Below, piece after piece: positions 1 through 13,704 of a DNA stretch of 64,000 nt. The DNA comes from a virus. The notes below the pieces were generated by a model. That model ran no database searches. It saw only the letters and a program-made list of their open reading frames with translations, and was not told where the DNA came from. Numbering within the stretch: position 1 is the stretch's first letter; each line of letters starts with the position of its first letter. The position numbers and the translations under genes were made by a program. The stretch lies in the IMG/VR virus record IMGVR_UViG_3300003322_000571, positions 62,001-126,000 of that record. One strand, written 5' to 3'.

Positions 1-183
1 TGTAGAGCAGATGCGAAGAACTTCACGCTTGAACAGCGATCGTCCGTATTTCCTGACGCTAGCTCTGATACGATTACCCGAACCTAAATAGTCATCTGTG
101 CTCGCATTCTCCCCTGAATGTACGCCAATGTAAAATTGGTTTGTGTCAATGTTGACGGTCTTGTAAACAATGTGCTCTCTCAT
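1..183 (-). CDS. GIY-YIG homing endonuclease, partial (C-terminus outside window)
   Basis: Reading the minus strand from the ATG at 183 gives 61 codons open to the window edge. The peptide begins MREHIVYKTVNIDTNQFYIG and continues to YLGSGNRIRASVRKYG. This is the N-terminal layout of GIY-YIG nucleases: a (V)YK strand, then YIG, then the SGxxIxxAxxKYG helix. A strong Shine-Dalgarno (GGAGGGG) lies a few bases upstream, and a late promoter motif is at 201-208. Such enzymes are mobile genes that cut a related genome lacking the insert. The catalytic C-terminal half cannot be seen, so intactness is unknown. Confidence 0.8.
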   Translation of the reverse strand, partial: MREHIVYKTVNIDTNQFYIGVHSGENASTDDYLGSGNRIRASVRKYGRSLFKREVLRICST

Positions 184-200
184 GATACCCCTCCAACGCT

Positions 201-208
201 TATTTATG
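201..208 (-). promoter_or_regulatory. Late promoter motif CATAAATA
   Basis: On the minus strand the sequence reads CATAAATA, close to the T4 late consensus TATAAATA. It lies about 18 bases upstream of the start codon of the partial GIY-YIG gene. The same motif precedes the minus-strand GIY-YIG gene near 27.2 kb and the tail fibre genes. Confidence 0.55.
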
Positions 209-292
209 GACTTGCATTGCGATTGGTCCAGACTTCCCTGAGAAGATCGATCCGATCACTCGTCAACTCAAGTTGTACAACTAAGTACACCT

Positions 293-390
293 GCCAGCGT
301 TTCTAATATTGGCCTTAGGGGTGCCCTTATAAAGCACTAAGACCCGTCTAGATCAGGCGGTTAATGTGGGTTCGATTCCCATCGCTGGTA
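293..390 (+). tRNA. tRNA-like RNA with long variable arm, anticodon position UAU
   Basis: A full cloverleaf can be drawn. The acceptor stem is 293-299 with 383-389 (7 bp, one G.U), with A390 as discriminator. The D-stem is 302-305 with 316-319, its loop containing A and GG. The anticodon stem is 321-325 with 333-337, with one C.A mismatch; loop 326-332 gives T33 and triplet TAT. The variable arm is 344-349 with 355-360 (6 bp). The T-stem is 366-370 with 378-382, loop TTCGATT. CCA is not encoded. A long variable arm belongs to Leu, Ser or Tyr tRNAs, none of which has UAU, so the decoding identity is uncertain. It could be an odd Ile(UAU) tRNA or a tRNA-mimicking RNA such as a Y RNA for the Ro60-like protein downstream. 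Confidence 0.65.
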
Positions 391-600
391 CACACAACCC
401 TAATATTTCTGTTGGGGTAACGTACTCAACCATATATACTTTCTTCAGCTGTTGCGTAGTTCAAGGGTTACTTCTTTTGGTGAAACTATCCCCTTGACGT
501 TTTAATCTCAGCTTTAACATATGTACGCACGTGGGTGCAAGGTTAACTGTTCCCGTCTCATGACCGGACGTTAGTCTCCACGCTGCCAACTTTTGGTTGA
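391..600 (+). other. Gene-free leader with a large imperfect hairpin (447-513)
   Basis: No convincing reading frame is present. TCAAGGG at 461-467 pairs with CCCTTGA at 491-497, and AGCTG at 447-451 can pair with CAGCT at 509-513, giving a long interrupted stem. It starts just after the promoter at 412-440. It may be a leader structure for the downstream gene or a small RNA. No known family was recognised. Confidence 0.3.
412..440 (+). promoter_or_regulatory. Sigma70-like promoter TTGGGG-N17-TATACT
   Basis: TTGGGG at 412-417, a 17-base spacer, then TATACT at 435-440. Transcription would begin near 447, at the foot of the hairpin described at 447-513, and run into the gene at 653. Confidence 0.45.
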
Positions 601-638
601 AGCCCTGGTATGCAACACTGCTACCAGGGCTTTTCCTT
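601..638 (+). terminator. Intrinsic terminator followed directly by a Shine-Dalgarno
   Basis: A 10-bp stem (601-610 with 622-631) is followed by TTTCCTTTTT. The T-run passes straight into GGAGAA, the ribosome site of the gene at 653. Confidence 0.75.
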
Positions 639-652
639 TTTGGAGAAAATAA

Positions 653-1057
653 ATGTCGCTAGGTACAATTAAAGATGTCGTAATTGCTACGGTGGATGTC
701 GCTAATCTCAACAATCGCGTTTACCCAAAGAACGTGATTGAAGAAGCTGTTCGTCAGCGTGTTCATCCGATTTTCGGCCGAGTCGGTATGCCGGAAGCAG
801 GATCGTCTTGTGAGGTCGACCTTCGTGATGTATCACATCAAGTTACCGATCTCCGAATCACCGAAGATGGTAACTTGACTGGCACAGTTGTCGTCCTTGA
901 CACGCCTCCCGGTAGGTTGCTGACATCATTGTTGACAGAGAACCTCGACATCACCTTCCGCATGGCAGGATATGGTGATCTAATTGATAAGGATGGATAC
1001 ACAGAAGTGACCAACTTTCGTCTATCATCGATCAATGCTGTCGCAGACGGTGCTTGA
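653..1057 (+). CDS. Prohead-protease-like protein lacking the catalytic residues
   Basis: 134 aa. The layout matches the T4 gp21 type of prohead protease: an N-terminal strand, then NNRVYPKNVIEEAV (compare NGRIYPxxVL), then DVSHQVTDLRI, then a strand around DITFRMAGYG and VTNFRLSSINAV. Family members carry GELDHP with a catalytic His and an (S)xRG with a catalytic Ser. Here these positions read GRVGMPE and TFR, so His appears replaced by Met and Ser by Thr. It is also short (T4 gp21 is about 210 aa). Probably a pseudo-protease, perhaps a regulator of maturation or a core component; the function is inferred. The capsid gene lies 2.8 kb downstream. Confidence 0.6.
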   Translation: MSLGTIKDVVIATVDVANLNNRVYPKNVIEEAVRQRVHPIFGRVGMPEAGSSCEVDLRDVSHQVTDLRITEDGNLTGTVVVLDTPPGRLLTSLLTENLDITFRMAGYGDLIDKDGYTEVTNFRLSSINAVADGA

Positions 1058-1075
1058 TCTCATTAAGGGTCAACC

Positions 1076-1375
1076 ATGAAACTCCTCGAAGAACTTGAAG
1101 CACAGTTTACTGATGGTCGTCAACTGTCTTCTGAACTGTTTGGTTACATCTTGCGTTGGTATCAAACAGGTGAGATCGACAAAGTTGATGAGCTGCTGAA
1201 GTCGATCGAGTTCAAGCCCACGATGCTGCATGTTGCTGCTGGCGTGATCCGTATCACAGCAGGCTGGCGACACCTTCTTCCGTCTTGGGAAGAAGCAAAG
1301 GATCGGGCGGTGTTGGCGATCACGGAAAGTGGTCATGATCCTCACAAGCTGTTAATGGGAGTTCGTCCGTTATGA
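1076..1375 (+). CDS. Hypothetical protein, 99 aa
   Basis: Not recognised. The N-terminus (MKLLEELEAQF) is predicted helical, and a central part contains HVAAGVIRITAGWRHLLPSW. It follows the protease-like gene after 18 bases and shares an ATGA overlap with the next gene, so the two are probably translated together in front of the Ro60-like gene. Confidence 0.75.
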   Translation: MKLLEELEAQFTDGRQLSSELFGYILRWYQTGEIDKVDELLKSIEFKPTMLHVAAGVIRITAGWRHLLPSWEEAKDRAVLAITESGHDPHKLLMGVRPL

Positions 1376-1560
1376 AACGTGACATCAAAGATCATCCGTT
1401 ATTGAAAACGATGACGGCTGAGCAACTGTTGCAAATGCTCGTTGATGTTCGAGAAGTTGCATGGGTCGAAGGCCAAGATGGACGAACGAAAGAAGATTTT
1501 TACAACGCTTTAACGCAAATTTGTCGCATCACACGTGATGTTGACAACTACCATTTTTAA
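1372..1560 (+). CDS. Hypothetical protein, 62 aa
   Basis: Not recognised. A short, acidic and helical sequence with HPLLKTMTAEQLLQMLVDV near the start. The start overlaps the stop of the preceding gene (ATGA), and it ends 13 bases before the Ro60-like start. This spacing places it in the same transcription unit. Confidence 0.7.
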   Translation: MKRDIKDHPLLKTMTAEQLLQMLVDVREVAWVEGQDGRTKEDFYNALTQICRITRDVDNYHF

Positions 1561-1573
1561 CTGGAGAAACGAT

Positions 1574-3250
1574 ATGTCAAAACTCAATCCAACTGGTCGT
1601 AACGTTACGACAAACATTGTTGCGGTTGCTGCGAACCGTGGTGAACAGCTTGCTGTTTCTGCGAATGGCAACTTGCAATTCAAGAAGGACTCCTACCAGA
1701 CGTTGTACGAAACAACTGTTTCGACGATGCTTGGCAAGGGCAACCAACTGAATTCTGCTGATGCGCTTGTGCAAAAGCTGAAGGCGTCCGTTCGTTCTGT
1801 TGTTGCTGATGGCGCCAGCTCATTCGACTTCATTGCGAACCTCGCAATCCACGCACGTACGGAGATGAACGTCCGTACGATCCCAATCGTTCTTGTGGTT
1901 GAATTTGCGAAGGCGCTCGCCGATCAGCGTCAACCGTTGGTTGCACGTGTTGATGCGATTGAACAAGAACTGACTACAGCTCGTAAGGCTAAGCGTGCGA
2001 CTTCGTCAATCGTTGAGCGCCTGACTGCAGCTCGCGAAGACGCTGAAATCTACACGTATGGCAACATGCGTCAGCTCGTCAATGACGTGATTCAGCGTGC
2101 CGACCAGATCACTGATCTGTACGCATATGCACTGCAAGTGTTCGGTGGCAAGAACAAGATCCCGATGGCGATCAAGCGTGGTGTTGCTGATGCTTTCAAC
2201 AAGTTCAGCGAATACGCGTTCGCGAAGTACAACCGTGACGGTGCTGTCAAGTTCCGTGACGTCCTTCGTATCGTTCACCCAACTGCTTCGACGATCAAGC
2301 AAGGCGAAATCTTTGACAAGATCATGAAGGATACGCTTTCCGTCCCGTACACTTGGGAAACTGAGTTGTCGGCCAACGGTCAGAAGCCAGTTGCAGAACG
2401 TCTGACGCAGAAGCAGCTGTGGACGCAGCTCGTCACGTCTGGTAAGGTCGGTTACATGGCGTTGCTCCGCAACCTGCGTAACATCATCAGTGCTGGTCTT
2501 GATGACGATGTTGTCAAGAAGCATGTTCTCGATGTGATCTCCGATCCTGCACGCGTTGCAAAGAGCAAGCAATTGCCGTATGACTTCATTGAAGCATACA
2601 ACATCGTCAAGCCACTTGACGGTCGTTTCGCAACCGCAGTGTCGAAGGCACTTGATGCTAGTGCTGCGAACTTGCCAGAACTTGGTAAGCGCGTGTGGCT
2701 GATTGTTGACTACTCCGGCTCGATGGGTCATGGTCCGACTTCTGCATTCGGCGGTGGTGTGTTCCTCGCTTCGGCATTGCTGAAGGCTGCAGGTTCGACT
2801 GCTTCTCGTCTTGCTGTGACGTTGTTCGGTTCGACTGCATTGACGTTGAAAGACGTTGATACGAACCATTCGATGCTCGGTCTCCAGCAGATCCTCGAAA
2901 GCTACCGTAAGGATGGCATCAGCGGTTCGACGAATTTCCGTGCAGCTCTTGACCAGAAGTCTCAGCTCGGTTTCGAACCTGACACGATCATTGTGATCAC
3001 TGACGGTGAAGTCAATGGCTTCCCGTACGGCGTGATCAAGAACGTTGCAGGTCGTAGCGTGATGAAGATGGCAGTCAACATGTCTGTTGCAACATCGACT
3101 CCGATGTCGCAGCATGACGGCTGGTATTCAATGGCAGGCTGGTCTCCAGCTATGTTCAAGTGGATCCCGGCAATGCGTGACGCCGGTTCTGTAATCGAAC
3201 AGCTTGCTGTTCCTTACAAGGGTGTCCCTTCAGCTAAGGTTGAAGAATAA
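1574..3250 (+). CDS. rsr: Ro60-like RNA-binding protein (TROVE domain plus vWA domain)
   Basis: 558 aa from the ATG at 1574, chosen over an upstream ATG at 1535 because GGAGAA sits 6 bases before it. Residues about 20-360 show the TROVE repeat pattern (DALVQKLKASVRSV, FDFIANLAIHARTEMNVRT, then LVVEFAKAL). From about residue 375 a von Willebrand A domain follows with an intact metal site: DYSGS (Asp at about 379), STNF and ITDGE. Ro60 (Rsr in bacteria) is a ring-shaped protein that binds misfolded RNAs and tRNA-mimicking Y RNAs and can guide exonucleases to RNA. A tRNA-like RNA is 1.2 kb upstream; a CYTH enzyme and an RNA ligase follow the capsid gene. Phage Ro homologues are known in some mycobacteriophages. 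The family call is strong; the role in infection is open. Confidence 0.88.
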   Translation: MSKLNPTGRNVTTNIVAVAANRGEQLAVSANGNLQFKKDSYQTLYETTVSTMLGKGNQLNSADALVQKLKASVRSVVADGASSFDFIANLAIHARTEMNVRTIPIVLVVEFAKALADQRQPLVARVDAIEQELTTARKAKRATSSIVERLTAAREDAEIYTYGNMRQLVNDVIQRADQITDLYAYALQVFGGKNKIPMAIKRGVADAFNKFSEYAFAKYNRDGAVKFRDVLRIVHPTASTIKQGEIFDKIMKDTLSVPYTWETELSANGQKPVAERLTQKQLWTQLVTSGKVGYMALLRNLRNIISAGLDDDVVKKHVLDVISDPARVAKSKQLPYDFIEAYNIVKPLDGRFATAVSKALDASAANLPELGKRVWLIVDYSGSMGHGPTSAFGGGVFLASALLKAAGSTASRLAVTLFGSTALTLKDVDTNHSMLGLQQILESYRKDGISGSTNFRAALDQKSQLGFEPDTIIVITDGEVNGFPYGVIKNVAGRSVMKMAVNMSVATSTPMSQHDGWYSMAGWSPAMFKWIPAMRDAGSVIEQLAVPYKGVPSAKVEE

Positions 3251-3282
3251 CACTCGTTGAAGGTCAACGACCAACGCAAGAT

Positions 3283-3310
3283 AATAGCCCCGAAAGGGGC
3301 TATTCCTTTT
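3283..3310 (+). terminator. Intrinsic terminator after the Ro60-like gene
   Basis: AATAGCCCC, loop GAAA, GGGGCTATT (9-bp stem, 3283-3304), then CCTTTT leading into GGAGAA, the ribosome site for the gene at 3323. Confidence 0.8.
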
Positions 3311-3322
3311 GGAGAATACAAA

Positions 3323-3748
3323 ATGGACAACAGAATTTTCAATGTCAACGGACGTGGCCTATCGATGTTGACGTCAACGCTTAAGCTAGCGTTTTGGCAA
3401 AATGCAGGATGCTATGACAAGAGTCAAGACACTGAAACAGTCAAGGGATACACCGTCGAAAAAGACAAAGGCTTGATTTTGCTCTGGGCTGTTGACGAAA
3501 AAGATCCATCACATCAAAAATTCATCGCACCGTTGACAGCTGAAGCCGTCGCACCGCTCGTTGATTTGTGGCTGAAGTCAGACGAAGCGAAACAAATCCC
3601 GTTTGAGCGATGGGAGGATGATTGCGATCATGACGGACACAACACTCTCGGTTGGCGTGTATATTGTGAAGATTGGGGCCATGTAGGAAGGGCAGGATGG
3701 CATGCAACAATTGCAATCAAGCCTGTTTATCTGTGGCACGGCAAATAA
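3323..3748 (+). CDS. Hypothetical protein, 141 aa
   Basis: Start taken at 3323 because GGAGAA lies just upstream; a TTG in frame at 3257 would put the terminator hairpin inside the gene. The sequence is rich in Trp, Asp and His (DDCDHDGHNTLGW near the middle), which could bind metal. No family recognised. It sits between the Ro60-like gene and the capsid gene. Confidence 0.8.
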   Translation: MDNRIFNVNGRGLSMLTSTLKLAFWQNAGCYDKSQDTETVKGYTVEKDKGLILLWAVDEKDPSHQKFIAPLTAEAVAPLVDLWLKSDEAKQIPFERWEDDCDHDGHNTLGWRVYCEDWGHVGRAGWHATIAIKPVYLWHGK

Positions 3749-3813
3749 GGGGATAGGTAACTCCTCAACTATTACCTGTAAGTAACGATAACCATAACTA
3801 AAAAGGGTCACTT

Positions 3814-5136
3814 ATGTCAAGTCATGTATTGACGCTCTTCAACCCGATTGTTAGAGCGATTAAAAAGGGATACGTTCAGTATCAGAATCGAAAAGAAGAT
3901 AAAGCGTGGAACACTCTCCGTGCGGAAGAACTTGCAAAACTCGATAGTAAATCTCATAATTGGTACACCGTATTGGTCGATAATCAACTGAAGACAGTTC
4001 GTGGCCAAAAGGAATTGAACGCGAACCGCCAACAAAAGGTTGATGCATCGTACTTCGAATTCTTGTTCAAACTGGGATGCAAGGTTGCACGAGAGTATGC
4101 TGTACTACCAAACATCATCGGCATGCAGCCGTTGCATAGTCCTGTTGGTTTGGTGTATCACATGGAGTACACACAAAAACCAGTCACTTCAGAGCAAAAT
4201 GATGTTGGAAGTGCCGATATCGGTAAGTATCGCCTTGAAGTGATCAGTCATGCTGTCGTTGCATTGACTGAAAGGTTGAGCACCCACGTTGATCCTAACG
4301 TAGCTACTGTCCTGGGACAGAAGGATAAGACACTAGTTGACAAGTTAGTTGACGTTCTCGGGGGAGAAATCGCTCGTGAAATGCTGATTGACATTCTTAA
4401 CGATTTGAGACATCTCGGTCGTCAGAACAGAAATCACTTTGAAGTCATCACCGCATCTGACAGTCATAAAGCAGTATATCTCAACAAAATCTGCAATGAG
4501 ATTGCTGCAGAAACACGACGAGGCCCTGCGAATTGGATTATCGCATCGATTTCAACGGTTTCGAAATTGCAAAGTGCGCCGTTCTCATACTTTAGCTCTG
4601 GTAAGTCCAACCGTGATAGCAGTTTGCTGTTAATGCACGTTGGTCGGCTTAATGGAGTAATTGAAGTTTACGCTTCAACAGAGGTCAAAGACGATGAGAT
4701 TTTGATTGGCTACATGGGCGGTAACGGCGCCACAGATACAGGTTACGTATTTGCTCCATATATTCCTGTTGTTCCAGGTAATGTTGTACTTGATCCTGTA
4801 ACACTTGAGCCGATGGTTGAATTCATGACTCGCTACGGTAAAACCGCATTTAAGAATCTGTCGGACGATTTTGGCAACCTTGTAATCCCACGTCATTCTA
4901 CAGGTGAAAAATACTACCGCATTGTTGAATTCGCAGAACCTAAAGAAGGCGTATACGATCCAACCGCGCTCGTTGAAGATTTTGTGTTCCCTGCGACTAA
5001 AGAACCTCAGTTTCTTGCACCTCTAACAGAGCAATTGCTTGGTAAATCGAACCTTAATATCGAAGAAGACTCGTCTGTTGAGTTGAAAACAAACCTTCCA
5101 GATAGTACTGAGGTGAACGATAAACCGTTCGTATAA
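3814..5136 (+). CDS. Major capsid protein, T4 gp23/gp24-like
   Basis: 440 aa. Several T4-type capsid signatures occur in order: VLPNIIGMQPLHSPVGLVYH (compare GVQPMxGPTGLxxA in gp23), LHVGRLNGVIEVYAST, ILIGYMGG with DTGYVFAPYIPVVPG, and near the C-terminus EPMVEFMTRYGKTAF (compare PVxGFKTRYG). T4 gp23 is 521 aa and gp24 427 aa, so length alone does not separate main shell from vertex protein. No other capsid gene is in the window, so main capsid protein is the better guess. The position near a protease-like gene fits a head module broken up by inserted genes. Confidence 0.85.
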   Translation: MSSHVLTLFNPIVRAIKKGYVQYQNRKEDKAWNTLRAEELAKLDSKSHNWYTVLVDNQLKTVRGQKELNANRQQKVDASYFEFLFKLGCKVAREYAVLPNIIGMQPLHSPVGLVYHMEYTQKPVTSEQNDVGSADIGKYRLEVISHAVVALTERLSTHVDPNVATVLGQKDKTLVDKLVDVLGGEIAREMLIDILNDLRHLGRQNRNHFEVITASDSHKAVYLNKICNEIAAETRRGPANWIIASISTVSKLQSAPFSYFSSGKSNRDSSLLLMHVGRLNGVIEVYASTEVKDDEILIGYMGGNGATDTGYVFAPYIPVVPGNVVLDPVTLEPMVEFMTRYGKTAFKNLSDDFGNLVIPRHSTGEKYYRIVEFAEPKEGVYDPTALVEDFVFPATKEPQFLAPLTEQLLGKSNLNIEEDSSVELKTNLPDSTEVNDKPFV

Positions 5137-5154
5137 CAATAAGGAATAAAAACC

Positions 5155-5325
5155 ATGTCCAATCAAGTTACTTTCCCAAAGGGCAAGCAAGTCAATCGCA
5201 GTGGTGAACGCACTCGTTTGACGCGTCAAACGACCGTCACTGTTATCCGTAGCGAACCAGCTCGTGACGGCAAGACTCGCGTGTTCTGGAAGTCGCATCG
5301 CGGCGAAGCTAACGCACTCGTCTAA
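5155..5325 (+). CDS. Small basic protein, 56 aa
   Basis: ATG at 5155 with AAGGAAT upstream; ends TAA at 5325. The product is strongly basic (MSNQVTFPKGKQVNRSGERT, then RLTRQTTVTVIRSEPARDGK). It directly follows the capsid gene and is closed by a terminator, so it is probably co-transcribed with capsid. A head or DNA-binding role is possible but not shown. Confidence 0.75.
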   Translation: MSNQVTFPKGKQVNRSGERTRLTRQTTVTVIRSEPARDGKTRVFWKSHRGEANALV

Positions 5326-5347
5326 TCACAATAGACATTGATCATCA

Positions 5348-5375
5348 ACACCGCCCTCGTGGCGGTGTTTTTGTT
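5348..5375 (+). terminator. Intrinsic terminator closing the capsid unit
   Basis: ACACCGCC, loop CTCGT, GGCGGTGT (8 bp, 5348-5368), then TTTTTG. Confidence 0.85.
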
Positions 5376-5696
5376 CCTGTTTGTTTTCCCCTGCAACTAT
5401 AAGATAGTCCGTGAAATACCGGGCGCAATTATGGCTTTGGGAGGTTAGCGTTCGTGCTAATATACCATTCGTTAGGCGGCTTGCAGCGCATAGAACGATA
5501 AACGGCGGAGGGATCCAGGCGTCAATGCCTCCCTTGACTGAAGCAAAACTGATTGACTAACCTTTGATAAAGGCGGCGGGGTACGGCTCTGCTAGTGACC
5601 GGCTGGCCTAACTTCGTGTTGCATAACTACGCTGGGAATCCCGGCTATACCTCCATCGTTTGCATGAGATAACCGGTGGACATTTAAGGAGAGATT
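5376..5696 (+). other. 320-base region without a convincing gene
   Basis: Holds the possible promoter at 5381, a small hairpin (TTAGC, loop GTTCGT, GCTAA, about 5444-5460), and a nested pairing GGAGG with CCTCC around GGC...GCC at about 5507-5532. A GTG frame of 49 codons (5411-5560) has no ribosome site. The ribosome site AAGGAGAG of the next gene is at its right end. It could be a long leader or a non-coding RNA upstream of RNA-related genes; no known family recognised. Confidence 0.4.
5381..5408 (+). promoter_or_regulatory. Possible promoter TTGTTT-N16-GATAGT
   Basis: TTGTTT at 5381-5386, a 16-base spacer, then GATAGT at 5403-5408. It follows the capsid terminator and precedes a 290-base untranslated stretch before the CYTH gene. 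Confidence 0.35.
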
Positions 5697-6257
5697 ATGA
5701 AAGAGATTGAGCGAAAATTCTTGGTTAACTCTGCTCAGTTCAACAGAGACATCAGTGTGCTCGAGAACTACGGAGTGGACATTGTCAAGTATTCGATCAT
5801 GCAAGGTTACTTGTCGACGGGTATTGATATGCCGATTCGCATCCGGCATCGATCGCATTTTGATCCAGTTGCCGTTGCAACGGTCGATGCTTACACGATG
5901 ACTGTTAAGGCTAATCGTACTGGTATCACGTGCGATGAGATCGAGTTCGATATCCCTGGTGATAAGTTTAATCAGCTGTTTAGGCTTTGTGGTGATAACG
6001 TTCTGGTAAAGTCGCGTTATGTCGTACCTTATCGAGGCAGTATTTGGGAAGTTGACATGTTTCATGGGGACTTACAAGGCCTTGTTGTTGCGGAGATTGA
6101 ATTGCAACATGAGGATGATCTTTTCGTACATCCTGTGTGGGTTGATACTCAAGTAACTGCCGACTCGCGGTATGCTAATGCGAACCTCGTGAAGCAGACG
6201 TTTGACATCCTAAGTAACGAATTGGTATGGAAGAATGTTGAACGATTTAGGGTTTAA
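5697..6257 (+). CDS. CYTH-domain triphosphate tunnel metalloenzyme
   Basis: 186 aa, the usual size of a single CYTH domain. The signature ExExK is at residues 3-7 (EIERK). It is followed by the family strands IRIRHRS, MTVKANRTG with CDEIEFDIP, KSRYVVPYRGSIWEVDMFHG, GLVVAEIELQ and VTADSRYANANL. Members hydrolyse triphosphates such as inorganic tripolyphosphate, thiamine triphosphate or RNA 5'-triphosphate, or make cAMP; substrate cannot be read from sequence. An RNA ligase follows two small genes later, so a role on RNA ends is a reasonable guess. A ribosome site AAGGAGAG sits at the right distance. Confidence 0.88.
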   Translation: MKEIERKFLVNSAQFNRDISVLENYGVDIVKYSIMQGYLSTGIDMPIRIRHRSHFDPVAVATVDAYTMTVKANRTGITCDEIEFDIPGDKFNQLFRLCGDNVLVKSRYVVPYRGSIWEVDMFHGDLQGLVVAEIELQHEDDLFVHPVWVDTQVTADSRYANANLVKQTFDILSNELVWKNVERFRV

Positions 6258-6274
6258 AGGTTAAAGTCACCAAC

Positions 6275-6472
6275 ATGAGCAAACCACACTATCACAAAGA
6301 CGAACGCGGCATTCTGCAAAAGTGCTATCACGGTGCACAGAATTTGCTGACCGATTACAAGTTTTGGATCGGCGTCACATTGAGTTTCCCTCTCGAACAT
6401 TTCATCTGGGAGAAGCTGTGGCCTTTCTATCTGATCTCCGAATGGCTCGGTCTAATTGACCATCTCCACTGA
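6275..6472 (+). CDS. Hypothetical protein, 65 aa
   Basis: Not recognised. The N-terminal third is polar (MSKPHYHKDERG) and the rest is rich in Trp, Phe and Leu (DYKFWIGVTLSFPLEHF, then LWPFYLISEWLGLI), suggesting a membrane-associated peptide. Its stop overlaps the next start by one base. Confidence 0.65.
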   Translation: MSKPHYHKDERGILQKCYHGAQNLLTDYKFWIGVTLSFPLEHFIWEKLWPFYLISEWLGLIDHLH

Positions 6473-6645
6473 TGGACGAGTTTAATCCGTACGATCCTGA
6501 GCTTGCGCAACAGATCACAGAACATGCACAGAGATTACTAGATGGTCTTTTGAAGAGTTCCCATCTGCAAAGTAACTCTCCTGTCCAACAGTGGTTCGAA
6601 GCCAATCCACAACTACCTTTCAATGATTTCTGGAATCCAAAATGA
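6472..6645 (+). CDS. Hypothetical protein, 57 aa
   Basis: ATG at 6472 overlaps the preceding TGA; the stop at 6643-6645 overlaps the start of the RNA ligase gene (ATGA). The sequence begins MDEFNPYDPELAQQITEHAQ and has no recognised domain. Its place in an overlapping chain from CYTH to RNA ligase argues that it is real. Confidence 0.65.
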   Translation: MDEFNPYDPELAQQITEHAQRLLDGLLKSSHLQSNSPVQQWFEANPQLPFNDFWNPK

Positions 6646-7790
6646 GCAAATTTGCTGTTGAAGTCGTCCGTATCCGCGCAATCGAACCGATCACCGGAGC
6701 TGACGCAATTGAACTCGCTGTTGTTGGTGGCTACCGTTCTGTCGTTAAGAAGGGTGACTACAAAGTCGGCGATCTCGCCGTGTACATTCCTGAACAAGCA
6801 ATCGTCCCTGATTGGTTGCTCGAAAGGATGAATCTCACTGGTCGTCTTGCTGGGACGAATAAGAACCGCGTAAAAGCAATCAAGCTTCGCGGTTGTCTGT
6901 CACAAGGTTTGCTGATTCCCGTCAAGCATGTTGCAGCTTCCGGTGCGAACTACATTCAGAATGATGTAAGTCTGATTCCTGTTAAGGAAGGCGATGACGT
7001 TGCTGATTTCCTTGGTATCGTTAAGCATGAAGTGCCGATCCCCGCACACCTTGCTGGTGAAGTGTACAACGCAGGTAGCCACTTGACTGTTCCGTACGAT
7101 ATCGAGAACTACAAGAAGTTCGTCGATGTGTTTGAAGATGGTGAAGAAGTCGTGTTCACCGAAAAACTGCATGGCACATTCACCGGTATCGGTATTCTGC
7201 CGCGTGGTGATTGGGAGGAAAAGCACTTCCTCAGCCGTTTCGTTATCTTCAGCAAGGGACTTGGTGCACGAGGTCTGTGCTTCAAGGATTGCGATAACAA
7301 CGCAGACAATCTGTACGTTCGCACGCTGATGGAGTCCGACATCTTCTCTCGTCTGTCTGACCTGATGGAGGAGATGGAAGAAGAGCACGGCTTTGATCGT
7401 CCTTTGTTCCTGCTCGGAGAAACGTTCGGTGCAGGTGTACAAGACTTGCAGTACGGTAACCTGCCGGCTTCGTTCCGCCTGTTTGACGTATGCGTTGGCT
7501 ACCGCGGTGATCAGTTCTTCTTCGACTACGAAGGTCGTGTCCGCCTCGCGAACCATCTTGAAATTCCGATGGTTCCGATTCTGTACAAGGGTCCGTTCAG
7601 CCAAGCGGTGCTCGATCAGTACACGAATGGCAAGGAAACGGTTTCTGGTAAGGAATCACACATCCGCGAAGGTGTTGTGATCACTCCTGTCGTTGAACGT
7701 GAACATCCTGAACTCGGCCGTGTGATCTTGAAGTCTGTCTCTGCAGACTACCTGCTTCGCAAGAATGAAAACGCAACGGAGTACAACTGA
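6642..7790 (+). CDS. RNA ligase, DRB0094/Rnl5-like
   Basis: 382 aa. An N-terminal OB-like region (VVRIRAIEPITGADAIELAVV, then YKVGDLAVYIPEQAIVPDWL) precedes the nucleotidyltransferase core. The adenylated lysine is K175 in EKLHGT. Later motifs are LLGETFGAGVQDLQYG, REGVVI and ILKSVSADYLL. This order is that of Deinococcus DraRnl and relatives, which seal 3'-OH/5'-phosphate RNA nicks. The combination with Ro60 and CYTH suggests repair or remodelling of phage or host RNA. It overlaps the genes on both sides, so its expression is coupled. Confidence 0.88.
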   Translation: MSKFAVEVVRIRAIEPITGADAIELAVVGGYRSVVKKGDYKVGDLAVYIPEQAIVPDWLLERMNLTGRLAGTNKNRVKAIKLRGCLSQGLLIPVKHVAASGANYIQNDVSLIPVKEGDDVADFLGIVKHEVPIPAHLAGEVYNAGSHLTVPYDIENYKKFVDVFEDGEEVVFTEKLHGTFTGIGILPRGDWEEKHFLSRFVIFSKGLGARGLCFKDCDNNADNLYVRTLMESDIFSRLSDLMEEMEEEHGFDRPLFLLGETFGAGVQDLQYGNLPASFRLFDVCVGYRGDQFFFDYEGRVRLANHLEIPMVPILYKGPFSQAVLDQYTNGKETVSGKESHIREGVVITPVVEREHPELGRVILKSVSADYLLRKNENATEYN

Positions 7791-7969
7791 TGAATAACGT
7801 CTTAGTAGGGTACGAGGGAAGTGCTGAAGTTGACATCAGCTACTTCTATTGCCCGTACATCCCAGGACAACCTATTCCTGTTGATGTGTGGGATCACCGT
7901 GCTGTTAAGAGGCCAACTGATATCCAGCGCCGGATCATGGAAGCGGTTCAACGTCCTCAACTGTATTGA
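7790..7969 (+). CDS. Short protein resembling the capsid C-terminal motif, 59 aa
   Basis: ATG at 7790 overlaps the ligase stop. The first half, VLVGYEGSAEVDISYFYCPY followed by IP, aligns with the capsid segment ILIGYMGGNGATDTGYVFAP followed by YIP, and even better with the general gp23 pattern (GYKG, D, FYCPYIP). The second half (WDHRAVKRPTDIQRRIMEAV) does not match capsid. It may be a remnant of a duplicated capsid gene or a small protein built on that strand pair. Confidence 0.65.
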   Translation: MNNVLVGYEGSAEVDISYFYCPYIPGQPIPVDVWDHRAVKRPTDIQRRIMEAVQRPQLY

Positions 7970-7978
7970 ACCCTAAAG

Positions 7979-8007
7979 TTGAATAAAACTTTCAGGTCAA
8001 ATACAGT
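7979..8007 (+). promoter_or_regulatory. Promoter TTGAAT-N17-TACAGT upstream of the Ter cluster
   Basis: TTGAAT at 7979-7984, 17 bases, TACAGT at 8002-8007. It lies 29 bases before the TelA-like gene and would start the Ter cluster. Confidence 0.5.
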
Positions 8008-8035
8008 TCACCAACTTTCAACATAGAGGTCATTT

Positions 8036-9133
8036 ATGAACCGTCTTCCTTTTGGTCAGCAACAGACCACAACGGCACAACCAGTTGACATGAGTGCGTT
8101 CATTCAAGTGAACCCGACTCCTGCTCAGCCGGTCGTCGTTCATCAACCGCAGACGCGTGCACTGACTGTGATCAGTGATAAAGACATCCAGAACTTCGGG
8201 ACGGCGTCGACGAATCGGATCTCTGCAACGTCGCAGAAGATTCTCGCTGGTACGAAGGCCTCTGCAGTCGATGACTTTGGCGACAAGCTGAATGAGCTCG
8301 TTGCTACGACAAAGAAGCTCGATCCTGCGGATATCGGCAAGCCTAGTCTGATCAAGAAGCTGTTCGGGATCGGCTCCAGCGTCAAGGATCAATTCCAAGC
8401 GCAGTATCAAACCGTTGAACAGCGGATGAATACGCTGATCGCGGAGATTGATTCGATGGCGAAGCTGATGGAGCAACGAATCGATGATCTCGAGACGATG
8501 TACAAGGAAAATGAGGATGCGTACAAGCAACTCAGCCAAGACATCGCTCAGATCAACAGTATCGTCGCGACGATGAAGGCTGATCTTGCAGCACAACCAA
8601 CGCCGACTGATCCGATCGAAGCGCAGCGTCTCAATGACTATCAGGAACTGATCGACCGGCTCGAAAAGCGTGCTGATGATCTCGAACGTGGAAAGCAGCT
8701 CGTCATCCTGTCGCTGCCGGAAATTCGGATTGAGCAGACGAACAAGCGCAATCTCGTTGCAAGTATCGCAACGCTGAAGAGCACGACGATTCCGGCTTAC
8801 CAAGGTCTGTTCTCGCGTTACATCCTGGCGATGGAAACGAAGAAGGGCAACCAGGTCGTCGCTGCTTTGCAGGATGCAACTGATGAAGCGTTCCGCAAGC
8901 AAGCTGACCTCGTTCGTCAGAATGCGGTTGACTCTGCGAAGGCTCAACAACGGTCTGTCGTGACGACGGAGACGCTGATTCACTGCCGTGATCAGATGCT
9001 TGCAACTCTCGACGACGTCAAGAAGATCAATGACGCTGGCCGTAAGGCACGTCAAGACGCTCGTCCGCAACTCGAACAACTGGAACAGTCGCTGATCGCA
9101 CGCGCTGCTCCGCAACAACTTTCTCACAACTGA
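8036..9133 (+). CDS. TelA/KlaA-like toxic-anion resistance protein
   Basis: 365 aa, mostly helical with long coiled-coil stretches. The pattern fits the TelA family: a disordered N-terminus, then a helical core with SLIKKLFGIGSSVKDQFQAQ (compare the LxKLFGxG linker of the family), EQRMNTLIAEIDSMAKLMEQ, IDRLEKRADDLERGKQLVIL, and a C-terminal RSVVTTETLIHC region. TelA proteins are found in tellurite-resistance and Ter clusters, but their biochemical role is not known. It is the first gene of the phage Ter cluster. A second, shorter relative is at 17486. Confidence 0.8.
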   Translation: MNRLPFGQQQTTTAQPVDMSAFIQVNPTPAQPVVVHQPQTRALTVISDKDIQNFGTASTNRISATSQKILAGTKASAVDDFGDKLNELVATTKKLDPADIGKPSLIKKLFGIGSSVKDQFQAQYQTVEQRMNTLIAEIDSMAKLMEQRIDDLETMYKENEDAYKQLSQDIAQINSIVATMKADLAAQPTPTDPIEAQRLNDYQELIDRLEKRADDLERGKQLVILSLPEIRIEQTNKRNLVASIATLKSTTIPAYQGLFSRYILAMETKKGNQVVAALQDATDEAFRKQADLVRQNAVDSAKAQQRSVVTTETLIHCRDQMLATLDDVKKINDAGRKARQDARPQLEQLEQSLIARAAPQQLSHN

Positions 9134-9149
9134 ACGTAGGAGTTCAAAA

Positions 9150-9887
9150 ATGGCTGGTATCAATCTGCAAAAACGCGCCGAAGCTGTCGGCATCGTCCTG
9201 GCAAAGCGTGGCATCACGAAGGTGCCCCCGGTTCGTGTCGGCATGGCACTGGACGTTTCTGGCTCTGCACAAACGTTCTATACGAGCGGCGTGATGCAAG
9301 AAACGATCGACCGTCTGCTCGGCGTTGCGCTGAAGTTCGACGACAACGGTGAACTCGACTCGTGGCTGTTCCACAACGACGTTCTCCCTCAACTGCCGAC
9401 GCTGACGGAAAGCGATGAAGGTACGTACGTCAAGAACGTCGTCCTCAAGCAACGCGGTCTGTGGGGTGGTACGTCGTACGCTCCTCCGCTGAAGGCTGCG
9501 ATGAGCTACTACTTCCAAGGTCCTGCTCCCGCCCCTGCTGCGAAGTCGGGTGGTCTGTTCGGCCTGTTCAAGAAGGAAGCTGCGCCCGCACCGGCTCCCG
9601 CTACCAAGCAAGACCCGGCAATGCTGCTGTTCGTCACCGACGGTGCGAACGGTGACCGCGCTGAAGCTGCTCAAGTGCTCCGCGAAGCTGCGAAGAGCTC
9701 GCCGGTGTACTTCCAAATGGTCGGTATCGGCCGTGCATCCGAGTTCGACTTCATCCGTCAAATGGCTGACGAGCTGCCGAACGTCGGGTTCGTCAACCTC
9801 AGCACGCTCAGCATGACCGATGAACAGCTGTACGAACAGCTGATCAATCCGGAATTCTGTGAGTGGATCAAGACGCTCAAGGCGTAA
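9150..9887 (+). CDS. TerF/TerY-like von Willebrand A domain protein
   Basis: 245 aa. The vWA metal site is visible: DVSGS near residue 35, the threonine region GGTSYAPPL, and FVTDGAN. A Pro/Ala linker with GGLFGLFKKEAAPAPAPA sits inside the domain. The protein opens MAGINLQK, matching the TerD opening MAGINLSK at 16820, a link seen in TerF proteins that join TerD-like and vWA parts. vWA proteins are partners of TerD and TerC in Ter stress systems. It follows TelA after 16 bases and is closed by a terminator. Confidence 0.82.
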   Translation: MAGINLQKRAEAVGIVLAKRGITKVPPVRVGMALDVSGSAQTFYTSGVMQETIDRLLGVALKFDDNGELDSWLFHNDVLPQLPTLTESDEGTYVKNVVLKQRGLWGGTSYAPPLKAAMSYYFQGPAPAPAAKSGGLFGLFKKEAAPAPAPATKQDPAMLLFVTDGANGDRAEAAQVLREAAKSSPVYFQMVGIGRASEFDFIRQMADELPNVGFVNLSTLSMTDEQLYEQLINPEFCEWIKTLKA

Positions 9888-9901
9888 TTCAACGACCGAC
9901 A

Positions 9902-9930
9902 AAAAGGGAGGCTCGACCTCCCTTTTCTTT
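9902..9930 (+). terminator. Intrinsic terminator
   Basis: AAAAGGGAGG, loop CTCGA, CCTCCCTTTT (9902-9926), then CTTTTC. Nearly symmetric, so it may act in both directions. Confidence 0.8.
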
Positions 9931-9944
9931 TCTTAAGGACACAG

Positions 9945-11222
9945 ATGGACACTCAACTATTCATTCCAGAAAAGCTGAAAGTTGGCTACCAAAAGCGTGA
10001 AGGTACGTATACGAGTAAACTAGCGTACGTGATCTACTACGACGCTAAGGGAAAGCTACGTAAGGAAACGTCGTGGCAGGGTTGGAGAAGCAAGGACATC
10101 GAACCTGATGACTTCGAAAACATCCCAACGACAGGGTTCATGATCAACAAGGGAATCACTCGCGGTGGTTATGATTGGTACTCTGATACCGTGACGAAAG
10201 TCCGTATCTGGGATCCGCGCGACTTTGAGATTGAGATCACGCTCGCCAACCTGATCGCGATCCTGATGCATAGTGATGTCTCTAAGCGAGATATCAACGT
10301 TCCTTGTGTGTATGCGTGGCACGGTTCTGACCTCGTTCTTCTTCCGACGAATACAGAAGAATACGAACTGTCGGCGAAGCATACTGCAAAGCAATCGCTC
10401 AAGTTTAGTTCGAAGGAACTAAAGATTGGCGCTACGTACAACATCAAGAAGGACAGCTCACAAGTTGTTTACCTCGGCTACTACGACCATTATGTTCCCG
10501 TTGATAAGTCAGGGGTTAAGGTCAAGCGCTGGTACAGCGTAGATGGATTGATCAAGCAAGGGATCAGCGGCAAGAAGCATGTATTCTACAATCTCACTGA
10601 CGATACGTTCAATTATTCAGCGCCATCTGCATTGATTGCAACGGTTGCGGATCTTGAGATTCATCCTCAGTATGCTGAACTACTAGACAAGTACTATGCA
10701 CAGTTTGAATCGCAGTTGATTGGCGGCTTGTATCTAAAGCCAAAGAATCCTCCTCCTTCTAGTCTACCGAATTACTATTACTACAGGTTCCCCACTTGGG
10801 TAAAGGTGTCTGATACGGTGTATGTCGACATTCAACTGAATGTTAACGTCGAACGTCCATATCATTATCACTGGAATGATCCAGTCAAACGGAACAAGGA
10901 TATGAGGATCGTCATTGATACAAAAATCAAGAACATTTGTGTCTATGACGAGGATACCAACTCTGTTAAGCTCAAGCCGGAATACTGGTCAGCATTCCCA
11001 ATCAGTTTCAACGATCCACAAATCACCGCTGTTGTGCAGCCGATCTTTGACATGTGGAGGCAGTTAGTCCAAGCGGAGTTCGAACAAACCCACGACATCT
11101 CTTATAACCACGAGGAACATTACAAGAAGATTGAGGCACAATTCCAACACGTGTTGGGGGAACGTCCCGCTTTTGTGATGATCGACGGTAAGAAATGTGC
11201 TAATGGTCCCACCATCTACTAA
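9945..11222 (+). CDS. Large unknown Ter-cluster protein, copy 1
   Basis: 425 aa, no known domain recognised. The first 170 residues are clearly paralogous to the next gene: both have LFIPE/LYIPE, GTYT-KLAYVIY, RKETSWQ-WR, the shared RIWDPRDFE and HSDVSKRDI, and a VYAW or VFAW motif. The C-terminal halves diverge. No signal peptide or membrane segment. Lies between the vWA gene and TerC, so a role in the Ter response is suggested by place only. Confidence 0.8.
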   Translation: MDTQLFIPEKLKVGYQKREGTYTSKLAYVIYYDAKGKLRKETSWQGWRSKDIEPDDFENIPTTGFMINKGITRGGYDWYSDTVTKVRIWDPRDFEIEITLANLIAILMHSDVSKRDINVPCVYAWHGSDLVLLPTNTEEYELSAKHTAKQSLKFSSKELKIGATYNIKKDSSQVVYLGYYDHYVPVDKSGVKVKRWYSVDGLIKQGISGKKHVFYNLTDDTFNYSAPSALIATVADLEIHPQYAELLDKYYAQFESQLIGGLYLKPKNPPPSSLPNYYYYRFPTWVKVSDTVYVDIQLNVNVERPYHYHWNDPVKRNKDMRIVIDTKIKNICVYDEDTNSVKLKPEYWSAFPISFNDPQITAVVQPIFDMWRQLVQAEFEQTHDISYNHEEHYKKIEAQFQHVLGERPAFVMIDGKKCANGPTIY

Positions 11223-11224
11223 TC

Positions 11225-12517
11225 ATGAGCTCTAAACTATACATCCCGGAAACGATCCTTGTTGGTTTTCAGAACCGCGCTGGAACGTACACAGGCAAAC
11301 TCGCCTACGTGATCTACAAGGATCATACTGGCAAGATCCGCAAGGAAACGTCCTGGCAGAACTGGCGTGACCATGACATCGACACCCTCGAGCTCAAGAA
11401 TACTCCACAGAGCGGCTTTACGTTCAACAAGGGTGTTCAGCGAGATAACCGGTGGGCTGGTTCCGGTCGTTCGATGTTCCGTATCTGGGATCCGCGCGAC
11501 TTCGAGTTCGAGATTACCGTTGACAACACGATTGCTATTCTAACGCATAGTGACGTGTCTAAGCGTGACATCACAGAACCATGTGTGTTCGCTTGGGACG
11601 GTACTGAACTGATCCTGCTGCCGATCAATTCTGAAGAATACCAGTCGTCACTTGTCCATACAGCACGTCAAGCAAAGAACGTTGAGACTAAAGACCTTGT
11701 TGTCGGTCATTCGTACATGGCGAAGAAAGAAGGCGTAGCCGTCGTCTACATGGGCCGTCATGACGTGTACGAATGGAAGCAATCGTACAGCGGACATAAT
11801 GCTGGATACAATTACGGCCATACGTCAACTGGCATGGTTAAGAAGAAGGCGAAAGCTCATACGTTCTACGTTCCTCCGTACGAAGAAACGACAAAATCGG
11901 GTTATGTGATCAAGCACGCTGCAGAGTTTGTAACGAAAGCAGACCCGAAGGCATATCTGTCTGAGTGCGTTCAAGCAGAAGTGCATGAAGACTATCCGAC
12001 GCTGATTGAACAGTTTTACGGACAAGGAACTCATCAAAAGATGAGCGGGTTGACGATTGAACCGTACGAAGACCGGATCTTTAAGAACAGCACAATCGGC
12101 GGTTGGCTGATGCTGTCTGATACAGAAGCAATTCGTATTCAGACGGATGCCAATGGCAATGTCAGGTGGCAAAAGTCAGCTGCATTCGACGGTAATGTCG
12201 TTCAACTGTCGCATGGTGAGGAAGTTGACAGGTATGCAAGTACGTACTACCATTACGGGAACAACCAGCGCGTTTACCCTCGTCGTGACCTTCCGGGATT
12301 GAGTGCTCAAGATGAACGTGTTGCAAGTATCATTGAGCAAATGATGCGCGACTTGCTTGACGGTGGGTTTGCTTTGTCAACCGACAATGTTGAAGAAAAT
12401 GTCAAGATTCGTCTTGCGAATGGTGAATTGCTCCGTCAAATGTGTCATAAATACAAGGTCGGGTACTTGAGGTCAGTAATGGCCGATGGTACTGTGGCAA
12501 CTAGCAAATCTTTCTAA
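11225..12517 (+). CDS. Large unknown Ter-cluster protein, copy 2
   Basis: 430 aa, paralogue of the preceding gene and separated from it by two bases. Shared segments include KLAYVIYKDHTGKIRKETSW, RIWDPRDFEFEIT and HSDVSKRDI in the N-terminal 125 residues. After about residue 170 similarity fades; the C-terminal half has QPTAD-free, polar sequence with no repeat or motif that I recognise. Tandem duplication followed by divergence is the likely origin. Confidence 0.8.
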   Translation: MSSKLYIPETILVGFQNRAGTYTGKLAYVIYKDHTGKIRKETSWQNWRDHDIDTLELKNTPQSGFTFNKGVQRDNRWAGSGRSMFRIWDPRDFEFEITVDNTIAILTHSDVSKRDITEPCVFAWDGTELILLPINSEEYQSSLVHTARQAKNVETKDLVVGHSYMAKKEGVAVVYMGRHDVYEWKQSYSGHNAGYNYGHTSTGMVKKKAKAHTFYVPPYEETTKSGYVIKHAAEFVTKADPKAYLSECVQAEVHEDYPTLIEQFYGQGTHQKMSGLTIEPYEDRIFKNSTIGGWLMLSDTEAIRIQTDANGNVRWQKSAAFDGNVVQLSHGEEVDRYASTYYHYGNNQRVYPRRDLPGLSAQDERVASIIEQMMRDLLDGGFALSTDNVEENVKIRLANGELLRQMCHKYKVGYLRSVMADGTVATSKSF

Positions 12518-12547
12518 CATTTCTTAGACTTACACAAGGACTTTATT

Positions 12548-12979
12548 ATGACAACTCTAGACGAACAAATCCGCGGCATGTTTGCCAAGCTGAATGACCG
12601 CAAGGCAAAGCTCGAAACACTGAAGCAGCAGTCTGCTCCGAAATGGAAGACGACTGGTACGTTCCGCCAGATTGGTGCAACGTCGGTGACGAGCATGCAG
12701 ACTGCATCGAAGGAAACGATCATCGAGATCGCTACTCAGGTCGAACTGCTCGCAGGAGCACAAGAATCGGTTGCAAAGAAGCTCGGTACAGATGCTACCG
12801 CACTGATCCAAGGCTACAAGCTGGAAGATTGGTATCATGACTTCCAGAAGCGCCTGGCGACAATCAATCAACGCGATGAAGAGGCAGCGATTGCTGATCT
12901 CGAAAAGCGTCTGAACAGCGTTCTCTCGCCTGAAGAACGTCGCCGTATCGAAGTTGAACTCCTGCTCAAGGAAGTTTGA
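12548..12979 (+). CDS. Coiled-coil protein in the Ter cluster, 143 aa
   Basis: Predicted largely helical: an N-terminal coiled coil (LNDRKAKLETLKQQ), a central KWKTTGTFRQIGATSVTSMQ segment, then helices ending in LSPEERRRIEVELLLKEV. Not recognised as a named family. Co-directional with, and 30 bases after, the paralogue pair; closed by a UUCG terminator. Confidence 0.75.
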   Translation: MTTLDEQIRGMFAKLNDRKAKLETLKQQSAPKWKTTGTFRQIGATSVTSMQTASKETIIEIATQVELLAGAQESVAKKLGTDATALIQGYKLEDWYHDFQKRLATINQRDEEAAIADLEKRLNSVLSPEERRRIEVELLLKEV

Positions 12980-13001
12980 TAGACAATTAGTAGTACAAAC
13001 C

Positions 13002-13030
13002 AAAACGACCTTCGGGTCGTTTTCCTTTTT
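13002..13030 (+). terminator. Intrinsic terminator with UUCG tetraloop
   Basis: AAAACGACC, loop TTCG, GGTCGTTTT (13002-13023), then CCTTTTT running into GGAGA, the ribosome site of the gene at 13042. Confidence 0.88.
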
Positions 13031-13041
13031 GGAGATTTGTT

Positions 13042-13374: not shown

Positions 13375-13597
13375 CTACTTGATCATGCTCGCTGAGCAGT
13401 ACCATCTTGATTGTGATAGGTACGATGCAACAGTGTGTTCAGGAATGTCAGAAGACGGTACACCAATGCCAATTGGTCCTTATGAACTTGGTCTCGTAAA
13501 TCAAAATGCAAGGCGTGTTATTCGACGTCTACAACATTTGACATTTGACCATGAAGGACTAATGAAAGCAATTAGTATCGTCGGTGCGAGACAGTAA
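13367..13597 (+). CDS. Hypothetical protein, 76 aa
   Basis: Overlaps the end of the membrane protein gene by 8 bases. Soluble and acidic; begins MDDYLIMLAEQYHLDCDRYD. No domain recognised. The overlap suggests coupled translation. Confidence 0.65.
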   Translation: MDDYLIMLAEQYHLDCDRYDATVCSGMSEDGTPMPIGPYELGLVNQNARRVIRRLQHLTFDHEGLMKAISIVGARQ

Positions 13598-13637
13598 ACC
13601 ACCTGTTTTTTGAGATGAAGATTTCATGAAGAACCTG

Positions 13638-13666: not shown

Positions 13667-13704
13667 GACGTGTCTTTCAACAACCAACTCTACGGAGTAA
13701 TTCA

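Follow-up and report, generated by a model that had tools for sequence, protein, structure and literature searches.

A Probable Ro60 Ribonucleoprotein in a Jumbo Phage: a TROVE-vWA Protein and a Candidate Minimal Y RNA

Introduction

The viral DNA considered here (64,000 nucleotides, positions 62,001 to 126,000 of IMG/VR record IMGVR_UViG_3300003322_000571; hereafter the window) very probably encodes a phage Ro60 ribonucleoprotein, combining a ring-shaped protein of the TROVE-vWA type with a Y RNA of its own at 447-513. This previously unannotated RNA sits 1.06 kb upstream of the TROVE gene on the same strand. Phage Ro60 proteins and phage Y RNAs are already known as kinds, and the pair in the window adds a member. 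What began as a loose guess about a Ro60 next to a tRNA becomes in this way a testable phage ribonucleoprotein with defined candidate RNA partners. The whole record comprises 350,089 bp and belongs to a jumbo phage with 51 Rfam tRNA matches above the cut-off. The features are collected in Table 1.

Table 1. Features of the window, with their positions, strand and basis.
Feature	Positions	Strand	Basis or remark
tRNA-like RNA, type II tRNA	293-390	+	RF00005; fold; rank among phage tRNA matches
Y RNA core (Ro-binding RNA), minimal, without tRNA-like module	447-513	+	Matrix, descriptor, MFE
Stem P1, 5' strand AGCTG	447-451	+	Pairs with 509-513
Ro-binding motif, 5' part, GTTGCGTAG	451-459	+	Also in the Y RNAs that precede TROVE in other phages; IMG/VR scan
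Stem P2, 5' strand TCAAGGG	461-467	+	Pairs with 491-497
Conserved TTACTTC 3' of the P2 5' strand	468-474	+	
Apical domain TTTTGGTGAAACTATC, 16 nt	475-490	+	
Stem P2, 3' strand CCCTTGA	491-497	+	
3' signature AATCTC (504-509) and P1 3' strand CAGCT (509-513)	504-513	+	
Strong hairpin, then short T runs	606-650	+	Fold of 391-650, z -4.3
Prohead (head maturation) protease	653-1057	+	PHROG 207, E 4e-17
Ro60 (Rsr), TROVE + vWA, intact MIDAS	1574-3250	+	Pfam, residues, structure model
Major capsid protein, Gp23 family	3814-5136	+	PF07068, E 9e-36
CYTH-domain triphosphatase-like protein	5697-6257	+	PF01928; Ro60 association doubtful
ATP-dependent RNA ligase, DRB0094/Rnl5 type	6642-7790	+	TIGR02306; Ro60 association loose

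The Ro60 Protein and Its Surroundings

The protein encoded at 1574-3250 carries a TROVE domain (PF05731, E 7e-21) and a C-terminal VWA_2 domain in Pfam, and its MIDAS is complete (D379-x-S381-G-S383, T453, D477). Its structure model (pLDDT 73) retrieves Ro60 folds as the top PDB matches (E 2e-14 to 8e-10), the best being Thermus phage phiLo Ro60, vertebrate Ro60 and Deinococcus Rsr. Judged by its domains and modelled fold, the product is a phage Ro60, and the TROVE plus vWA protein that the first-pass annotation had read here is borne out. The positions it gave for this gene, for the RNA at 293-390 and for the CYTH and ligase genes are all correct.

The hairpin at 606-650 likely marks the end of the RNA cluster, and it was not flagged by a simple terminator scan. 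The gap at 5380-5690 gave neither a family match nor a structure signal (z +0.4). A search of viral contigs for related loci with single TROVE and capsid proteins found none.

Architecture of the Y RNA

From 5' to 3', the RNA at 447-513 is ordered as P1, GUUGCGUAG, P2, UUACUUC, the 16-nt apical loop, P2', AAUCUC and P1', and its unconstrained MFE fold yields both P1 and P2. GUUGCG...UUACUUC on one strand faces AUCUC on the other, and this internal loop is taken, from its sequence, to be the putative Ro60-binding site. The Rfam YrlA model (RF02553) found no match in 1-8100 at E 5, 447-513 included, and a permuted tRNA-like domain sought in 447-513 was absent, the apical domain of 16 nt standing in its place. 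Because the YrlA model is silent and there is no tRNA-like module, 447-513 was assigned by its Ro-binding core alone. YrlA itself is the tRNA-mimic subtype of Y RNA, and 447-513 is without such mimicry.

Motif and Descriptor Evidence

In phages of Caulobacter, Brevundimonas, Xanthomonas and Rhizobium, RNAs that immediately precede TROVE match the Rfam Y RNA family (YrlA, up to 55.9 bits), and their 5' Ro-binding motif is also found at window position 451. A matrix was trained on the Y RNAs of other phages only, the present phage being left out. It places position 451 at the top of the window with a score of 22.1, against 15.7 for the runner-up and a null maximum of 20.3 (30 x 64 kb), and it also recovers further Y RNA copies in the phage. 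In the IMG/VR scan with the 5' motif, TROVE was present in 12 of 25 records versus none of 13 for the reversed-motif control (p 0.002), and in eight of these 12 the TROVE frame lies inside the few kb of sequence inspected. Within the genome, the 9-mer GTTGCGTAG by itself is not enriched (six occurrences versus nine for the reversed control), whereas the longer motif is (seven versus one).

A descriptor combining nested P1/P2 with the 3' signature was preferred, together with null sequences, to an Infernal model because the removable inner domain of Y RNAs, which spans 16-103 nt, suits a descriptor better. In the present genome it matches position 451 and four other sites; it also picks out seven sites that precede TROVE in a Rhizobium phage, and Arthrobacter phage Atuin adds a single match. 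The motif and descriptor were refined after these very sequences had been inspected, and in this form the full descriptor gives 31 distinct matching sequences in all DNA examined, against roughly 0.05 expected per 350 kb of null sequence; random sequence (60 x 350 kb, 21 Mb) gave no matches. Across 30 aligned Y RNA cores, 156 two-sided changes occur over 12 pairs, the percentage paired being partly a product of construction because the stems were an entry requirement, and the 3' signature recurs as [A/T]TCTC or ACTC. Some accepted Y RNAs have imperfections in P2. The apical-loop pattern searched by itself in viral contigs matched one contig, within coding sequence, and was set aside as chance.

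It is very improbable that 447-513 is a chance look-alike and that the window holds no Y RNA. The element is short, its folding energy is unremarkable given its composition (z -1.0) and Rfam is silent on it, as such a reading would have it; the independently trained matrix and the joint descriptor, with its empty null, speak against this, as does the apical loop TTTTGGTGAAACTATC, which is the same at 14 of 16 bases as the apical domain ATTTGGCGAAACTATC of the Atuin Y RNA. For wider use, the motif GUUGCGUAG-N-GUUACUUC, combined with nested stems and AUCUC, finds phage Y RNAs that Rfam misses or scores below its cut-off.

Further Y RNAs and the tRNA-Like RNA at 293-390

Four further Y RNA copies lie at about 0.93, 1.18, 35.3 and 349.9 kb of the genome, bringing the total to about five, scattered in tRNA-rich regions. 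Some of them carry a tRNA-mimic domain, and the paralogue at 1.18 kb shows the permuted tRNA-like domain on testing. The permuted order in phage Y RNAs is T-arm, acceptor hairpin and D-arm, inside the Ro-binding stem. The best 5' motif is at genome site 1650, where the P1/P2 partner is missing from the expected place, and this site stands outside the five. Weak YrlA matches also fall on tRNA genes of the phage, where the model is cross-matching tRNA arms.

The pairing of Ro60 with a Y RNA recurs across TROVE phages, in which the Y RNAs usually abut TROVE; the three genes that separate 447-513 from TROVE depart from this and count against the assignment. Some of the Y RNAs found by the motif carry tRNA labels in public records, and several entries that GenBank lists as tRNAs immediately before phage TROVE genes prove to be Y RNAs. 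This precedent, the known tRNA mimicry of Y RNAs, a location upstream of Ro60 and the rejection by ARAGORN at default settings would all suit the cloverleaf at 293-390 as the Ro60 partner, a Y RNA with a whole tRNA fold for its tRNA-like domain. Such a role is nevertheless highly unlikely, since the arms follow the canonical D-anticodon-T order and a 7-bp acceptor stem is closed by the RNA's own ends, whereas phage Y RNAs are permuted; moreover, the GUUGCG..UUACUUC motif is absent from 293-390 and begins 60 nt downstream, and about 50 other tRNAs accompany this one in the genome.

As an RNA of the tRNA family the cloverleaf is confirmed, with 32.4 bits against the RF00005 cut-off of 29 and an MFE cloverleaf with a long variable arm (z only -1.5). 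Its acceptor is Leu-like (G1-U72, A73), and phage tRNA-Leu genes have the same GCC..GGTA acceptor ends. The anticodon loop has either 9 nt or a C31-A39 mismatch, the anticodon being perhaps UAU, and AUA is used for one of 557 Ile codons. Relaxed ARAGORN output was noise (594 calls). The RNA is judged to be one of the roughly 50 tRNA genes of the phage, a weak one, and not the Y RNA. The earlier expectation of a Y RNA close to Ro60 stands, but with 447-513 as the likely partner in place of 293-390.

What the sequence analysis establishes is the families, the Y RNA motif and structure, and the recurrence beside TROVE, whereas binding, tethering and purpose are inferred. In the mechanism proposed as most likely, several Y RNAs would be made from the tRNA-rich regions of the phage, and the Ro60 ring may bind misfolded or cleaved RNA ends. 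Minimal Y RNAs might gate or stabilise the ring, while those with tRNA mimicry could tether Ro60 to a nuclease or a tRNA enzyme, or serve as decoys. Ro60 and its Y RNAs would in this manner police the phage tRNA pool (about 50 genes) during infection. The five Y RNAs of this phage, some of which mimic tRNA and some not, make the reason why phages carry Ro60 testable. It is conceivable, though a tentative proposal, that Ro60 phages have a separate minimal Y RNA class, usually the copy nearest Ro60, with the short apical loop UUACUUC-N-UUUGG-Y-GAAA-, overlooked by Rfam and conserved between phages whose hosts are unrelated; this class would act as the gate or assembly RNA of the Ro60 ring, its tRNA-mimic siblings recruiting partners.

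The RNA Ligase, the CYTH Protein and RNA Repair

Both enzymes named by the first-pass annotation downstream of Ro60 are upheld. The ligase scores 239 bits with NCBIfam TIGR02306 (RNA_lig_DRB0094; cut-off 151) and has its motif I lysine in KLHG at residue 175. The CYTH protein reaches 24.5 bits with PF01928 (cut-off 23.2), and its ExExK motif reads EIERK. The closest solved structure to the latter is NE1496 of Nitrosomonas, known as a tripolyphosphatase.

The same annotation had suggested that these proteins and Ro60 may form an RNA surveillance or repair set, for instance against host anticodon nucleases, had allowed for a loose neighbourhood, and had named recurrence of the set as a test. As one module, the CYTH protein, acting as an RNA 5'-triphosphatase, and the ligase would together with Ro60 clean and rejoin tRNAs cut by such nucleases. 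Recurrence mostly fails: ligase, CYTH and TROVE occur together in two of 13 TROVE phage records, both from closely related Brevundimonas phages in which some 140 kb separate CYTH and TROVE, and neither ligase nor CYTH is present in the stretches around TROVE in the closest TROVE relatives. The run of genes is also broken by the capsid and small genes, and the likeness of CYTH to NE1496 counts against the module as well. A single module is therefore unlikely, even though the ligase is truly of the DRB0094 type, RlaP, a ligase-associated repair nucleotidyltransferase, is encoded in the same genome, TROVE and ligase are 7-8 kb apart in the Brevundimonas jumbo phages, and CYTH and ligase lie close together in two huge phages. 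TROVE, RNA ligases and tRNAs have also been grouped as jumbo-phage RNA repair (Iyer 2021, PMC7824862). Protection from anticodon nucleases is a possible, hypothetical purpose. The ligase and RlaP are probably part of a broader RNA repair kit of the phage, and the CYTH protein is probably unrelated.

Comparison with Known Systems

The Ro60/Rsr-Y RNA ribonucleoprotein is described in Deinococcus radiodurans and in Salmonella (YrlA/YrlB) (PMC7790460, citing Chen 2013/2014). These systems and the phage share a TROVE-vWA protein, nearby Y RNAs, some of them with a permuted tRNA-like domain, and the Ro-binding double stem; here, in contrast, the carrier is a jumbo phage, the five Y RNAs are scattered in tRNA regions and the window copy is minimal. 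Unlike in the rsr-yrlBA-rtcBA operon, neither RtcB nor RtcA is found among the proteins of 653-7790.

The phage ligase resembles the DRB0094/Rnl5 ligases of Deinococcus (DraRnl) and Naegleria (NgrRnl) in its OB-fold N-terminal module and KxHG nucleotidyltransferase motif, but is phage-encoded and its activity is predicted. The CYTH protein agrees with the CYTH/TTM enzyme NE1496 in its ExExK motif, length and sequence match, its substrate being likewise a prediction. Ralstonia jumbo phage RsoM2USA is similar in having about 344 kb, a TROVE protein, RNA ligases and 44 tRNAs including a CUA suppressor; its gene order differs, and the portion of its description consulted mentions no Y RNA (PMC8504454).

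The Ro60 genes of other phages (Thermus phiLo, structure 9L5Y; Caulobacter CcrPW/Colossus; Rhizobium TM39; crAss001; Arthrobacter Atuin) are of the same family and fold and have the same tRNA-rich surroundings. Their Y RNA arrays adjoin TROVE, whereas in the window three genes separate the Y RNA from Ro60 and both lie amid head genes (protease, capsid).

Ro60 and Its Gene Neighbourhood

The IMG/VR virus record (350,089 bases, of which the window is bases 62,001-126,000) is attributed to a jumbo tailed phage because a Gp23-family capsid and a head protease are present. The first-pass annotation had grouped a Ro60 protein, a cloverleaf RNA at 293-390, a CYTH hydrolase and a DRB0094-type RNA ligase as a possible RNA surveillance or repair set, and all four features are present where it placed them. 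The product of 1574-3250 is Ro60: its vWA domain has the full set of MIDAS residues, and profile searches link it to a recent TROVE structure as well as to Deinococcus Rsr and vertebrate Ro60. In the PDB, its predicted structure (pLDDT 73) most closely matches Ro60 proteins, those of Thermus phage phiLo and of vertebrates, and Rsr.

Features of the Ro60 region and of related phages (bare numbers, window positions; L-numbers, stretches of phage DNA)
Feature	Position	Remark
Y RNA stem P1	447-451 with 509-513	outer stem
Y RNA 5' motif	451-459	GUUGCGUAG
Y RNA stem P2	461-467 with 491-497	inner stem
UUACUUC	468-474	Y RNA
Apical part	475-490	Y RNA
AAUCUC	504-509	Y RNA
Ro60	1574-3250	TROVE E 7e-21, plus vWA
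CYTH protein	5697-6257	nearest: NE1496 of Nitrosomonas
DRB0094 RNA ligase	6642-7790	NCBIfam model 239 bits (cut-off 151); closest solved structure: Naegleria ligase
tRNA-Thr (annotated)	L018:3795-3862	upstream of TROVE
tRNA-Gln (annotated)	L026:3978-4045	upstream of TROVE
tRNA-Ser (annotated)	L021:7496-7570	upstream of TROVE
CYTH near ligase	LR745208.1 ~178-180 kb	no TROVE
CYTH near ligase	LR756501.1 ~175-182 kb	no TROVE

A Minimal Y RNA Upstream of Ro60

In phages of Caulobacter, Brevundimonas, Xanthomonas and Rhizobium, the Rfam model of YrlA, a family of tRNA-mimic Y RNAs, gave significant but sub-threshold matches directly upstream of the TROVE gene. These RNAs share G(G/U)(G/U)GCG..UUACUUC and nested stems, and the motif also occurs at window position 451 and at other plus-strand sites of the record. 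When 13 Y RNAs from other phages were used to train a position matrix, site 451 scored 22.1 with it, against 15.7 for the second-best site of the window and a maximum of 20.3 over 30 random windows. A strict descriptor (5' motif, P2, 3' [A/T]TCTC or GACTC, P1) found, besides 451, four copies in the record (at about 0.93, 1.18, 35.3 and 349.9 kb), one in Arthrobacter phage Atuin and, in Rhizobium phage TM39, seven within 1.2 kb upstream of the TROVE gene, with no match in random sequence (60 x 350 kb). Slightly loosened, it picked out 31 different cores from the roughly 0.8 Mb examined, against 0.05 per 350 kb in null sequence. Across 30 of these cores, aligned, neither helix is fixed in sequence, and changes on one strand are compensated on the other; since pairing was required for entry, the rate in null sequence carries more weight. 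Both stems also appear in an unconstrained fold of 430-530.

The window Y RNA lacks a tRNA-like module, and its apical loop is identical to that of Atuin at 14 of 16 bases. The paralogue at 1.18 kb has the permuted arrangement known from YrlA: a T-arm, an acceptor hairpin and a D-arm. Other phages, too, have minimal forms close to TROVE. Neither Ro60 nor Y RNAs are new in phages, and the window Y RNA and the four paralogues add members to known families. The minimal class may itself be new, but Y RNAs of the YrlB kind, which lack tRNA domains, are already known in bacteria.

Recurrence in Other Phages

Searched across 2.9 million viral contigs, the 5' motif matched 25 records, 12 of which encode a TROVE protein (for 8, inside the fetched stretch), while the reversed motif, used as control, matched 13 with TROVE in none (Fisher p 0.002). 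The same Y RNAs precede TROVE in actinobacteriophages (Gordonia, Streptomyces). Three annotated tRNAs directly upstream of phage TROVE genes (see table) overlap or adjoin Y RNA matches and are probably mislabelled Y RNAs.

The proposed set as a whole does not recur in this way. TROVE was found in 13 of 16 phage records searched, accompanied by an RNA ligase domain in 7 and by CYTH in 3; all three occur together in only 2 of the 13, both related Brevundimonas phages, with CYTH about 140 kb off. Among the 12 IMG/VR TROVE records with the motif, many of them fragments, a ligase domain occurs in two and CYTH in one, none near TROVE. From these counts, Ro60 and the Y RNA are the conserved unit, and ligase and CYTH loose neighbours.

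Two huge phages that lack TROVE carry a CYTH gene at 1-6 kb from an RNA ligase gene, possibly a separate pairing. RlaP is a usual partner of RNA ligases, and an RlaP nucleotidyltransferase (35 bits) lies at record positions 212622-212978, minus strand. Downstream of the ligase is a Ter-like stress gene cluster (8036-15950: TelA, TerF-type vWA, DUF475/TerC, HAD hydrolase).

The tRNA-Like RNA at 293-390

The RNA at 293-390 is best read as a phage tRNA gene, possibly a decaying one. It scores 32.4 bits with the Rfam tRNA model (cut-off 29), folds into a predicted cloverleaf with a long variable arm, keeps the ordinary D-anticodon-T order and has termini (GCC..GGTA) similar to those of the phage's tRNA-Leu genes. 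ARAGORN rejected it as a tRNA, and it ranks near the bottom of the 51 above-cut-off matches among 69 in the whole record (E up to 10). Its anticodon is perhaps UAU, although ATA accounts for only 1 of 557 isoleucine codons in 34 window genes. Interspersed with the tRNA genes are more tRNA-like RNAs that score below threshold (record positions 331042, 346370, 349484, 343926). Some of them have long or incomplete arms, and a few could be tRNA mimics or tRNAs in decay.

None of 51 plus-strand open frames of at least 150 codons in the window ends in TAG (TAA 29, TGA 22) and the phage has two CUA-anticodon tRNAs (L006:2779-2855 and 14125-14197), so TAG may have been freed or reassigned.

Possible Function and Other Structured RNAs

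According to PMC7790460 (citing Chen 2013 and 2014), Rsr of Deinococcus is tethered to PNPase by Y RNA; the alternative proposed there is that the tRNA-like domain of YrlA competes with anticodon nucleases. TROVE and ligases have been counted among jumbo-phage RNA repair functions (Iyer 2021, PMC7824862), and in a Listeria phage an Rsr-like gene has within 2 kb three strongly transcribed non-coding regions, which were suggested to be possible Y RNAs (PMC12282133). A phage Ro60 particle is inferred here; it would survey or protect the phage tRNA pool, on which it could act by degradation, protection or decoy.

Within the phage tRNA region lies a divergent candidate bacterial class A RNase P RNA (record positions 11575-11993; 53.6 bits, E 4e-14; cut-off 100 bits), in which conserved regions can be recognised; such an RNA encoded by a phage would be unusual. 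A permuted tmRNA with the tag ANEGNFRLAA is found at 304515-304897, minus strand.
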